Source: a virus. From it: DNA of 37,223 bases. This document shows, in pieces, positions 17,159-20,963 of the stretch. The stretch is taken from the IMG/VR virus record IMGVR_UViG_3300047367_000059, positions 1 to 37,223 of that record; one strand, given 5' to 3'. How positions within the stretch are numbered: position 1 is the stretch's first letter; each line of letters opens with the position of its first letter. The notes below the pieces were generated by a model. The model made no database searches. It worked only from the letters and a program-made list of their open reading frames with translations, and was not told the origin of the DNA. The position numbers were made by a program, and so were the translations under genes.

Positions 17159-19006
17159 TCAATTTTTAATCAATGGTGCTAATTTAGTCGTTAATCTAGT
17201 TATAGTATCATTTGTGAGATCTGCTGTAACTTTAGTTGCTTCTTCAATGAACTTATCGTAGTTGAATGTTTCATTTTCAGTTCCTTTGTTTTCTATAAAT
17301 TGTGGGAACATGGATTTTAATCCTGCTTCTGCGCCTCTGAACATTCCTCTAATATTTCCAGGACCTTGTAATAATTTTGCTAATTGAGGCGGAATTGCAC
17401 CCATTCCTCCGCCTATCATTCCAGTGACTTTCAATACATCTATTACATCTCTGTCTTCATTTGGATCTAAACCAAATGTCCTCATAAATGGTTGAAATGC
17501 CATTTCTCCAAATGCTTCACCAAAAGCCGTTGCGGCGGCTTTTGCATAGTCGCTGGTCATCATATTTGTCATACCACTTACTAGATTATCCATACTTTTA
17601 ACAAAGTCACTAGCATCATTACCAGTCATAGCAAATGTAAAATCCATGACCCTGTTTAAACTAGCGGCATAAAATTCATCTAGTTTGGCATTATAGCCCC
17701 TCATTGATCGTATGTATTCTTCACGTGCTTTGAATTCTTCTTCATCTAATGACTTTCTAGCCGCTGTAGAATTTTTTGTAAGCTCGTTCATTTCTAAAAA
17801 GCCTGACGCAATTTCTTTAGAAATTGCATCACCACCTATAAAACCAAGCTCAGCTAGTGTTCGAGCATTGGCTTTGTTGTCTTTGAATGCTTTTGCTAAA
17901 TCCAACATTCGATCGTTAACACCGTCAGAACCAGCGCCGCTTTGGGCCATCTTGATACCTTCTTGTATGATACGCATTAGTTCTGGACTACGTTGAGCCA
18001 TTTGACCGCCTTTGGTCATAAACTCAGTTCCAGGTTTGAACAAGCCCATTGTGATAGATTCTCTCATTGCGTCTTGCAATGCAGGCGAAAGTGTTGACAA
18101 TCCCGCCATAACATCATTAACTGCTCTCCTTTGATCCTCTGTCATACTCATTTGTGCAAATTGCATACGTTCATCAGCTTTTGCCGCCATTTGAGCTCTG
18201 ATTCTCTCTCTAACATTTTGCCCTGTTATTCTTGCCATCTTTTCTTGTTCTGTGAAGTTTTTGTTCATAACTTCCACAAGCTGTTGTTCAGCAAAAATTC
18301 TTAATTGGTCACTGTCCATTACTCTACGTCTGAGTTCTAATTCTTCAGCCATAAACTGTGCCATTTCATCACTAGCCATACCAAAGTATCCCATTGACTC
18401 TGTAGCACCTCTAAAACGTTCGACTAACTTAATAAAACGTTGACTTCCTTCGTCAACACTACCGCCTAGTTCGTACATTGCACTTAGATTGGTTCCAACG
18501 ATATCACCAAATTGATCTAAACGCAAACCTATCTCTGCTAGCGAGTAAGCAGTTTCTTGTATATTACCATTAAAGCTCAGTCCAACACTACCGCCAAAAG
18601 CCATAACTTTACTGAGTTCTTGTGCCGCACCAGCCGCCATACCAAGCTGTGTAGCCAGTGTGCCTACACCTACAGCTTTAAACATGTTAGCCATCATACC
18701 AGGATCACCAGCACCTTTTGCCATGCTAGGCACACTTGACATTGCTTTTTGATAACCTTTTTGGACAGCATTGCCCATAGCATTGGCATTTTTTCTAAAC
18801 TTATCATCACTGTCAAGGTCTTTTACTGCACGAACAACAGCTTGTTCACCTTGGCTAACACCCTGATTACTTGCTTTTAATCCTTGTAATTGAGCAGTTA
18901 ACTGTGATATAGCCGAGCGTACATCTTGCTGAGTTGATTCCATTGCAAAGTCTGGAACATCAACTGCCATTGGCCTACCGCCCATATTAATTGTGATTAC
19001 TGCCAT
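17159..19006 (-). CDS. Probable tail tape-measure / baseplate hub protein (gp29-like)
   Basis: The protein has 615 residues, close to T4 gp29 (590). It has a short beta start (MAVITINMGGRPMAVDVPDF), a helical, Gln-rich segment, a hydrophobic Gly/Ala-rich stretch (about residues 105-145: VGVGTLATQLGMAAGAAQEL) and then long amphipathic helices with many Arg, Glu and Met. This composition is typical of tape-measure proteins. It has no enzyme motif. It stands head-to-head with genes 26/51; in T4, genes 26, 51, 27, 28 and 29 are neighbours, and tape measures usually lie beside tail chaperones. I infer the role from length, composition and context. Another internal tail or head protein cannot be excluded. 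Confidence 0.55.
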   Translation of the reverse strand: MAVITINMGGRPMAVDVPDFAMESTQQDVRSAISQLTAQLQGLKASNQGVSQGEQAVVRAVKDLDSDDKFRKNANAMGNAVQKGYQKAMSSVPSMAKGAGDPGMMANMFKAVGVGTLATQLGMAAGAAQELSKVMAFGGSVGLSFNGNIQETAYSLAEIGLRLDQFGDIVGTNLSAMYELGGSVDEGSQRFIKLVERFRGATESMGYFGMASDEMAQFMAEELELRRRVMDSDQLRIFAEQQLVEVMNKNFTEQEKMARITGQNVRERIRAQMAAKADERMQFAQMSMTEDQRRAVNDVMAGLSTLSPALQDAMRESITMGLFKPGTEFMTKGGQMAQRSPELMRIIQEGIKMAQSGAGSDGVNDRMLDLAKAFKDNKANARTLAELGFIGGDAISKEIASGFLEMNELTKNSTAARKSLDEEEFKAREEYIRSMRGYNAKLDEFYAASLNRVMDFTFAMTGNDASDFVKSMDNLVSGMTNMMTSDYAKAAATAFGEAFGEMAFQPFMRTFGLDPNEDRDVIDVLKVTGMIGGGMGAIPPQLAKLLQGPGNIRGMFRGAEAGLKSMFPQFIENKGTENETFNYDKFIEEATKVTADLTNDTITRLTTKLAPLIKN

Positions 19007-19069: not shown

Positions 19070-19987
19070 ATGGAAAATCCACTTCAGGGCTACTATCGAC
19101 ACAAAGATCTCTATGTGAGATTACCAACCGGAGGTAAATGGTTAAAGAACAAACCTAAACTCACCGATGACGGAGAAATTGGTGTTAGACCAATGAGTAT
19201 GAAAGACGAATTGCTACTCACAATTCCAGATGCTTTATATAACGGACAAGCTATTTTTGAACTGATACAAAGTGTATGCCCTGATATAGTTGATCCATAT
19301 GAATTGTCTTTGCCTGATGCTGATGTAATTCTATTAGCCAGCAGAGCTAGTAGTTATGATAAAAAATTTCCTGTAGAAGCAAGATGTCCTAAGTGTGAAA
19401 CAACAAACATGTATGACGTTGATTTGCAAGTTGTATTGGGAAAAGTACATCTAATAGCAGAACAAACAGAAATTGAAATCGATGATTTAATAGTAGAACT
19501 TAGGTCCAATACACTTGCGGCTGTTAATGCTAACAACATTAAAACTGGTGAACTTGCTAAAATGCTAGGCAACATGAGAGAAAATGACGATATTGATCAA
19601 TCACTCAGAGAACAGTACAGTGAAAATATGCAAAACATCGCGGCGGCAAATATTGTACTAATAGCAGATGCTATTGTAAAAGTAATAATGCCAGACGGAA
19701 CAGAAGTCACAGATCCACAACACATTATCGATTGGATATCAAACAGCAATAGAAAAACTGTTACTGCACTACAAAGAGCTCAGACAGCAATGAATATAAA
19801 CGGCATTCCCAAAACTTTTGACTTTACATGTCCTGAAGAAAACTGCGACAACCATTTCGAAACTGCTGTAGAATTTAATCCAAGTTTTTTTTTCACAGAC
19901 AGCTCCAAACTTGCCGTGATGCAGAAGCAGTCAATAAGCTCGTCGAACAATACGAAGCCAGAAGATCAAGTATCAGAGAACAATTAA
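19070..19987 (+). CDS. 26: Baseplate hub / tail assembly protein gp26
   Basis: This belongs to the T4 baseplate hub protein family (gp26). The 305-residue zero-frame product opens with GYYRHKDLYVRLPTGGKW and has IGVRPMSMKDELLLTIPDAL, typical of the family. Four cysteines, C106-P-K-C109 and C254 plus C259, could form a zinc site that joins distant segments. From residue 273 the frame passes a run of nine T (Phe273-275), after which the zero-frame tail of 30 residues (Ser/Asn-rich, ending EDQVSENN) looks like low-complexity read-on, while the -1 frame encodes a folded-looking extension. I infer two products, a 305-residue form and a 359-residue frameshift form, as in tail assembly chaperone pairs. 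In T4, gp26 (208 residues) works with gp51 in hub assembly. Confidence 0.85.
   Translation: MENPLQGYYRHKDLYVRLPTGGKWLKNKPKLTDDGEIGVRPMSMKDELLLTIPDALYNGQAIFELIQSVCPDIVDPYELSLPDADVILLASRASSYDKKFPVEARCPKCETTNMYDVDLQVVLGKVHLIAEQTEIEIDDLIVELRSNTLAAVNANNIKTGELAKMLGNMRENDDIDQSLREQYSENMQNIAAANIVLIADAIVKVIMPDGTEVTDPQHIIDWISNSNRKTVTALQRAQTAMNINGIPKTFDFTCPEENCDNHFETAVEFNPSFFFTDSSKLAVMQKQSISSSNNTKPEDQVSENN
19885..19894 (+). other. Predicted -1 ribosomal frameshift (slippery) site
   Basis: Nine T then C, read in gene 26 as AGT TTT TTT TTC. U_UUU_UUC is a known efficient -1 slippery heptamer. The -1 frame has a stop at 19876-19878, just before the run, and stays open from there to 20148, with no ATG, GTG or TTG start until ATG 19987. 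The codons between 19894 and 19986 read as a plausible helix, so the simplest explanation is frameshifting (or polymerase slippage) at this run. No clear downstream stem was found. Confidence 0.7.
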
Positions 19988-20148
19988 TGGAAATTGTACT
20001 TTATACTGAAGGTGCATTTAGATATGATGATTTAGAACACTATCCTATACCTATGCAACAAGAAATTTACAACTCTATCAAAAAGAAAAACGACGAGATT
20101 AAAGAATCTATGGATAGAGTTAGAGGTACTAATCGTAGAACATTTTAA
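19894..20148 (+). CDS. 51: gp51-like C-terminal extension of gp26 made by -1 frameshift
   Basis: The -1 frame adds 84 residues after Phe275: a charged helix (CRDAEAVNKLVEQYEARRSSIREQ) and then MEIVLYTEGAFRYDDLEHYP and a Lys-rich helical end. A separate product could start at ATG 19987 (53 residues), but no Shine-Dalgarno sequence precedes it well and the protein-like sequence starts much earlier. In T4, gene 51 follows gene 26 and its product catalyses hub assembly; tail chaperone genes in many phages are expressed as a base form and a frameshift-extended form. The assignment to gene 51 is by position and role. The extended protein would be 359 residues. Confidence 0.65.
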   Translation, partial: HRQLQTCRDAEAVNKLVEQYEARRSSIREQLMEIVLYTEGAFRYDDLEHYPIPMQQEIYNSIKKKNDEIKESMDRVRGTNRRTF

Positions 20149-20170
20149 TTTCGAAGAGCTAAAGCTCATC

Positions 20171-20206
20171 GTCATACTCATTTCATTTCGTATGATAATT
20201 TTTTTT
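20171..20206 (+). terminator. Rho-independent terminator after gene 26/51
   Basis: Stem TCATAC / GTATGA (plus a G-U pair) at 20171-20177 and 20190-20196, 12-base loop, followed by AA and eight T (20199-20206). A small perfect palindrome GAGCTAAAGCTC (20156-20167) precedes it, eight bases after the stop codon. Confidence 0.7.
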
Positions 20207-20273
20207 AAACATATTTTATATGATACGTTATTACCTTGTTTTCAGTCGCACTTAGCTTGTTATAGCCAAGTGC

Positions 20274-20301
20274 AAAAAAAAGAAACGGTCATTACCCCGT
20301 C
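20274..20301 (-). terminator. Rho-independent terminator of the leftward early transcript
   Basis: On the minus strand GACGG (20301-20297), an eight-base loop and CCGTT (20288-20284) are followed by TCTTTTTTTT. The stem is only five pairs. A second stem, GCACTT / AAGTGC (20248-20273), lies immediately beyond the U-run. Together these would end transcripts coming from the GIY-YIG gene and the RNA-like region. Confidence 0.6.
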
Positions 20302-20530
20302 TACAGTTCGCATCGTTATAGTATAACCTATTGCTAGGCAGAGGCGGTTTTGCTATACCCCTTTACATACTGCTTAAAACGCAGAAACACTCTAAGCCAT
20401 AACGCCGACTTTTGAGCTATCCGTGGGTTACAATGGCACAGTAGAGCCCACTCTTTTGGTTTGTTTCCCTCGAGCAAGTTCCGACGGCCCGCATTACTGC
20501 GAACAATCTCAATGCTTTTAACAAAGAGGG
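20302..20530 (-). ncRNA. Possible structured non-coding RNA
   Basis: This is the only gene-free stretch over 300 bases (20149-20534, including the flanking terminators). No start-codon-led frame is convincing on either strand. The base composition is visibly richer in G and C than the genes around it. Several local stems occur on the minus strand: GCATT/AATGC (20491-20515), GTGGG/CCCAC enclosing TAC/GTA (20423-20451), CTGC/GCAG (20370-20384) and CCTA-GCAA-TAGG (20327-20338). The last closes on a GNRA tetraloop only when read on the minus strand. The stretch follows the GIY-YIG gene and ends at a minus-strand terminator. I do not recognise it as tmRNA, RNase P RNA, 6S, SRP RNA, a group I intron core or a known riboswitch. 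Confidence 0.45.
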
Positions 20531-20534
20531 TATG

Positions 20535-20963
20535 TTACGACTGGTGTCTGTTTAGTGATTCTACAAGTGCCTTGGAACTGCCAACTCTTACGTTTATAAT
20601 GCCGTTATAGTATTCATCAGTTTTAAGAACTTCACGGTCAAACTGTTCTTTGGCTTCTAAGTAACTTAGTTCGCCTCTGCTGGTGCAGTAGTACAGTATT
20701 TCTCTTGTGAAGTTTTCTGGGCCTAATTGTTCAACATCTGCATTCAAGTGATCACTGCTTCCCCAATAGGTTCTCCAGTCACTTTCTTTAGTTGAACGTC
20801 TTTTGTTTTTCTTGCCTTTGAGGGGTTTTTTAGTAACTTTAAATTTTGCCAGTTTTTTGCCAATGTACTTTTTGCCGTTTGTGAGGTTGGTAATAAGATA
20901 TACAAACCCTATGTATTCCTCACTGATTTCTTCTACTATTTTGCCTTGATAAGTCCATTGCAT
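20535..20963 (-). CDS. GIY-YIG family endonuclease (Seg-like)
   Basis: The 142-residue protein has the GIY-YIG nuclease motifs in slightly altered form: GFVYLI (19-24) and KKYIG (31-35), Arg64 in DWRTYWGSS, and Glu103 in ELSYLEAKEQF as the metal ligand. It is short and has no separate DNA-binding domain beyond the Lys-rich stretch 37-60 (for example KKPLKGKKNKRR). Such proteins are common in T4-like phages, some as free-standing homing endonucleases (T4 seg genes). It has its own strong early promoter (20981-21010), and a possible structured RNA lies directly downstream. Whether it is a homing enzyme or a domesticated nuclease cannot be said. Confidence 0.8.
   Translation of the reverse strand: MQWTYQGKIVEEISEEYIGFVYLITNLTNGKKYIGKKLAKFKVTKKPLKGKKNKRRSTKESDWRTYWGSSDHLNADVEQLGPENFTREILYYCTSRGELSYLEAKEQFDREVLKTDEYYNGIINVRVGSSKALVESLNRHQS

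Follow-up and report, generated by a model that had tools for sequence, protein, structure and literature searches.

Probable recoding at the nine-T run of gene 26

Gene 26 of the viral DNA analysed here (37,223 nucleotides of IMG/VR record IMGVR_UViG_3300047367_000059, called the window below) overlaps a second open frame near its 3' end, and the question raised by this locus is whether the two frames are separate genes or whether one gene yields a short and a long protein. The zero-frame protein of 305 residues (19070-19987, plus strand) matched PF12322 in a profile search (E-value 1.6e-17, residues 31-274, above the curated cut-off) and, among the PHROG profiles, the baseplate hub family phrog_150 (3e-20). 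These matches and its relatives mark it as a T4 gp26-like protein, a predicted tail-assembly chaperone (TAC-N) and the short form. The gene reads AGT TTT TTT TTC at 19883-19894 in its zero frame. The nine Ts (19885-19893) in this NNT TTT TTT TTC context contain two heptamers, T TTT TTT at 19885-19891 and T TTT TTC at 19888-19894, and the latter has the X XXY YYZ form in the zero frame. This run is the sole A or T homopolymer of at least nine in the 37-kb window, and T runs are six or shorter in all other main ORFs checked.

A stop at 19876-19878 closes the -1 frame, which is then open through 20145. This frame provides 84 codons past the run (19894-20145) and a stop at 20146-20148, so that residues 1-275 of the short form joined to this extension (TAC-C, 84 residues, 19894-20148, plus strand) give a long form of 359 residues. 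The zero-frame stop TAA at 19985-19987 overlaps an ATG at 19987 (TAATG), with which a 53-residue part of the -1 frame begins (19987-20148, plus strand); we judge that this ATG is not the real start. The positions of the run, the -1 stop, the open frame and the ATG given in the original prediction were all correct when the sequence was re-read, and the -1 frame indeed lacks a start codon ahead of ATG 19987, which lies 31 codons past the run.

We consider it highly probable that the -1 fusion is made in vivo as part of a short and long chaperone pair, a reading based on sequence, conservation, homology and copy number together with the lack of a conserved start. Normal translation would yield the 305-residue gp26-like short form, and a fraction of expression would change to the -1 frame on the nine Ts, yielding the 359-residue long form with a helical domain at its C-terminus. 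The 84-residue extension was modelled by AF2 as a helical domain with a pLDDT of 81.5, in which ATG 19987 falls inside the predicted helix 13-40. The zero-frame tail (residues 270-305) had a predicted pLDDT of 28-39, which is consistent with disorder. Foldseek searches with both models matched no solved tail chaperone, sequence searches of the PDB gave no match, and Pfam and PHROG searches with single extensions returned only noise or narrow families.

Conservation of the run and of the -1 frame

In the first relatives collected, seven from IMG/VR and twelve from an alignment-based scan, the run was kept in all, and it was exactly nine Ts in 12 of 12 from the scan. A further 57 stretches were fetched by a pattern from the downstream non-coding sequence and are hence unselected for the slip site. 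In 42 of these stretches tblastn matched gene 26, and all 42 had exactly nine Ts and, past them, a -1 extension that stays open for 78-85 codons. These 42 relatives represent 29 lineages when grouped at less than 95% identity of the extension. The codon preceding the two in-frame TTT codons ends in T in every lineage (AGT in 17, GCT in 8 and ACT in 4). Given only codon usage and amino acids, the log10 probability of finding nine Ts in all 29 is about -13.5, a value that overstates the strength of the result because it treats the lineages as independent.

Past the run, the three frames differ. Within the first 25 codons, stops occur in the -1 frame of none of the 29 lineages, in the zero frame of 26 and in the +1 frame of all 29. 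Over the same codons in nine close sequences, pN/pS is 0.69 in the -1 frame against 0.91 and 1.32 for the remaining two, and the mean BLOSUM62 score is 2.34 in the -1 frame and 0.72 and 0.47 in the others. Protein conservation begins at the run, 31 codons upstream of ATG 19987. The tail of the short form past the run varies from 3 to 31 codons among relatives. The original prediction had proposed that relatives be examined for a conserved slippery run and a conserved -1 protein, and had regarded -1 stops upstream of ATG 19987 as damaging; both forms of conservation were found, and such stops were not seen in any of the 29 lineages.

Two readings without recoding were weighed against this background. 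In one, the -1 frame is a separate small gp51-like gene whose start is ATG 19987 and which may depend on coupled reinitiation at TAATG. The stop/start overlap of this one strain could allow such coupling; for most phages the downstream ORF is annotated as a gene of its own, and in cyanophage-like contigs a start codon lies 1-3 codons from the slip. However, ATG 19987 is not conserved: one relative (L007) has no ATG at this position, and the first ATG of the -1 frame is scattered over codons 4-73 in the 29 lineages. A start there would also cut the predicted helix 13-40, and a separate gene leaves the invariant T run unexplained. The unconserved start and the onset of conservation at the run lead us to reject this gene as the main product, and we regard the reading as a whole as very unlikely. 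The other reading is that the run is a chance homopolymer or an error of sequencing or assembly, in which case the two frames would be a single ORF or the extension would be spurious. Homopolymers do attract errors in principle, but the identical nine Ts recur in contigs of many separate metagenomes and in divergent lineages, which refutes an assembly error and disposes of the run-length error that the original prediction had named as a possible pitfall. Moreover, the zero frame of other relatives stops 0-15 codons past the run, which indicates that both frames are maintained. We give this reading practically no credence.

Directly past the extension lies a non-coding element of about 380 nt (window 20149-20530, minus strand). 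It is conserved far more strongly than the adjacent proteins: its mean column identity is 87% in seven sequences, and gp26 of the same relatives is 41-71% identical to that of the window for most. The minus-strand fold has 70 predicted pairs, 17 of which show double-sided compensatory changes among 31 sequences, and a search of Rfam gave no credible match. The element was found in 57 IMG/VR stretches, nearly always beside a SegE-like ORF, and beside gene 26 as well where the contig extends that far. Judged from its covariation and conservation, the element is a strong candidate for a structured phage RNA not described before. The neighbouring ORF (20535-20963, minus strand) encodes a SegE-type GIY-YIG endonuclease (PF19835, 4.3e-36). 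In nearly all relatives this ORF, with 72-100% identity, sits immediately upstream of the RNA and shares its strand. Because its position is fixed, this suggests that the endonuclease ORF is not a recent mobile insertion and that it may be linked to the RNA.

One PF12322 gene in the relatives searched and two in T4

The same layout is present in distant phages. A tblastn search found 62 phage records at 23-32% identity, mostly of jumbo phages. In 13 of 13 jumbo phages examined, the gene ends at a slippery heptamer of six or seven Ts and the -1 frame is open. This frame leads into a domain of 60-80 residues that starts with FF and is usually deposited as a separate hypothetical gene. Where the annotation is comparable, the neighbourhood is often the same as that of the window, with portal, structural protein, gene 26, small ORF, endonuclease and gp46. 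All 80 cyanophage-like IMG/VR contigs (L040-L119) have T TTT TTC and the same layout, as do four of five other T4-like phages, namely Sf-FS3 (a cyanophage), IC12, phiAS5 and RL38J1. Pseudomonas phage Cygsa01 (L026, 2750-2982) is the only relative examined that has no canonical slippery heptamer, reading AGC ATT TTC ACC TAA. It also has a TAATG stop-start overlap. Reinitiation or a different slip may operate in this phage.

In public records such as NC_042013 (Atu_ph07), KM507819 (121Q) and PV340856 (Sf-FS3), the extension appears as a separate hypothetical gene, as a 'baseplate hub assembly catalyst', or is missed or truncated. The joined frameshift product is annotated in none of the public-record regions viewed. 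If the present reading is right, many marine and jumbo phages carry a single recoded chaperone gene where the annotation shows a hub subunit and a hub assembly protein, and public annotation usually splits or truncates this gene.

The original prediction had described genes 26 and 51 as joined by the frameshift. A whole gp51 as the downstream partner is ruled out, since T4 gp26 and gp51 both match PF12322 over their full length (8.8e-64 and 3.9e-52, respectively) and are paralogues. T4 gp26 ends in GLKEFFELL, at the place where the short form of the frameshifting genes ends, and gp51 is about 50 residues longer. Thus, the part of the claim that holds is that the short form is gp26-like and the long form gp51-like; the extension itself probably corresponds only to the C-terminal 50 or so residues of gp51. 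This correspondence was traced through a chain of hhalign comparisons. The extension of the window is homologous to that of the jumbo phages from FF on, including the part that precedes ATG 19987 (E-value 7.6e-13), and the cyanophage-type extension is homologous to the C-terminus of T4 gp51 (3.2e-11, with cross-hits between phrog_634 and phrog_150). The step between the jumbo and cyanophage types is weak (2.8e-4, probability 41), and the match of the window fusion to phrog_150 reaches only position 263 of 282. It is therefore likely, albeit unproved because of this weak step, that the extension is the counterpart of the gp51 C-terminal domain (residues 200-249 or thereabouts).

The number of gene copies is in line with a short and long pair made from one gene. 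T4 has two PF12322 genes per genome, and the frameshifting isolate records that were searched whole have one, SCTP-2 apart; in SCTP-2 the PF12322 profile finds none, yet tblastn finds a copy. Two partial IMG/VR relatives have one PF12322 gene each. The simplest reading of these sequences is that the T4 pair arose by duplication and that the other phages make both forms from one gene. In T4 itself, genes 26 and 51 are divergently transcribed; T4 carries the two genes and has no frameshift there.

The family, whose members gp26 and gp51 have been listed among hub assembly chaperones (PMC3004832), and the analogy with lambda gpG/gpGT (PMC5009743) make the short and long pair a predicted tail assembly chaperone. 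By the same analogy, the short form would act as a coat on the tape measure protein and the long form, the rarer of the two, would recruit tube subunits, after which both would leave. A possible client is encoded next to gene 26 on the opposite strand and divergently transcribed (17159-19006, minus strand). This 615-residue putative virion structural protein weakly matches the RaK2 ORF088-type structural protein (1e-5), for which a GenBank note gives a similarity to a tail tape measure protein. It matched neither T4 gp29 nor any family at an E-value of 0.001. We treat it as a candidate tape measure protein and candidate client of the chaperone.

Possible agents of the slip and comparison with known systems

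What slips at the nine Ts? The original prediction named a programmed -1 ribosomal frameshift. That expression is recoded here into the -1 frame is supported, but the ribosome is not the sole possible agent; it may be the ribosome, or RNA polymerase adding one U. Polymerase slippage comes into consideration because nine Ts is a classic slippage length (PMC5009743) and because the ribosomal stimulators seen in relatives are not clearly present here. In the cyanophage contigs, a Shine-Dalgarno-like GGAGG is located about 11 nt before T TTT TTC, with a five-base match in 51 of 57 distinct sequences as compared with 4.6% of control windows, a match owed partly to conserved Leu-Glu-Gly codons; its placement resembles the arrangement in E. 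coli dnaX. Downstream folding is also stronger than in controls in the cyanophage contigs (z -1.68 vs -0.17) and in the jumbo phages (z -1.58 vs -0.32), the latter having no Shine-Dalgarno-like element upstream of the slip site. In the 29 lineages of the window clade, no Shine-Dalgarno-like element was found (best match four bases or fewer), and no clear downstream structure was seen (z -0.59 vs -0.09 for pseudoknot-free folds). For the nine sequences nearest to the window the folding value is z 0.11 vs 0.25 in the control. These z-scores do not support a downstream hairpin as a stimulator in the window clade.

The ancestral signal would be T TTT TTC, at which the P-site and A-site tRNA-Phe would re-pair one base back. 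In the clade of the window, the run would have grown to nine, raising slippage without Shine-Dalgarno or hairpin stimulators. Alternatively, or in addition, the polymerase may slip on the nine Ts by adding one U (or losing two) in some of the transcripts, which would then yield the long form by normal translation; this would be the main or an accompanying mechanism, the relatives with six Ts being ribosomal. According to a 2016 review, runs of nine As or Ts are efficient slippage sites for bacterial RNA polymerase, and nine Ts in Thermus dnaX take the place of the ribosomal frameshift of E. coli (PMC5009743). The run reaches this length, at least nine A or T, throughout the clade. In the 29 lineages the exact nine includes the wobble T of the preceding codon, a base not required by the T TTT TTC heptamer. 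The clade also has no Shine-Dalgarno-like element and little or no downstream structure, unlike the cyanophage contigs and, for structure only, the jumbo phages. However, nine Ts also constitute two overlapping ribosomal heptamers, so that ribosomal slippage would be raised too, and the homologous sites with six Ts are too short for strong polymerase slippage and suggest that the ancestral mechanism was ribosomal. Weighing these points, we regard a part for polymerase slippage as a real possibility, with the balance somewhat against it. The further step, that in this marine T4-like lineage transcriptional slippage at an exact run of nine has taken over from, or come to exceed, an ancestral ribosomal frameshift, is put forward tentatively and with rather more doubt than belief. 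An exact run of nine without clear stimulators makes the choice between ribosome and RNA polymerase directly testable.

The original prediction had placed the 26/51 arrangement in the class of the lambda G/GT-type chaperones. The locus has the features of that class at the sequence level, a slippery site near the 3' end and a -1 frame open into an extension that is conserved across relatives. The proposal is not new, however. The G-T frameshift was described in 2016 as widespread except in T4 (PMC5009743), and Vladimirov, Gautam and Davidson (2022), as cited in the PRFect (PMC10885494) and Adele (PMC12846349) papers, reported that some T4-like phages have one short and one long gene and that poly-T serves as a frameshift signal in T4-like TAC-N genes. 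Short and long chaperones and poly-T frameshifting are thus already reported for T4-like phages in those accounts, and the present lineage adds a well-supported member, whose nine-T signal may be a distinct variant. Short and long forms and a poly-T signal are common to it and to the gp26/gp51-family chaperones as reported there; the window lineage differs from those T4-like systems, as far as these sources describe them, in having exactly nine Ts rather than six or seven and in having neither a Shine-Dalgarno-like element nor clear structure.

As predicted for the window, lambda gpG/gpGT has a short form and a rarer -1 extended form made from one gene, which lies near the tape measure gene. 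The neighbour that is a candidate for this role in the window is encoded on the opposite strand, and the likeness drawn here is one of layout. The chaperones of Vandenendeviridae and Andersonviridae (GTTTTT motif; PMC12846349) also have a T-rich slip site at the end of TAC-N and a -1 frame that is open in all genomes, and their downstream ORF is misannotated as a separate gene, as in the relatives of the window; they belong to other phage families and have a shorter run (PMC12846349). In dnaX, a gene unrelated to the window chaperone, homologues use a ribosomal frameshift with a short run and stimulators in E. coli and nine-base transcriptional slippage in Thermus thermophilus (PMC5009743), the corresponding slippage at nine Ts in the window being putative. 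If it occurs, there would be three routes to the short and long pair: ribosomal slippage at six Ts with stimulators in jumbo phages and cyanophages, polymerase slippage at nine Ts, and the gp26/gp51 duplication of T4. This lineage and its relatives therefore offer a comparison set for the making of two isoforms by ribosome slippage, possibly by polymerase slippage, or by duplication.
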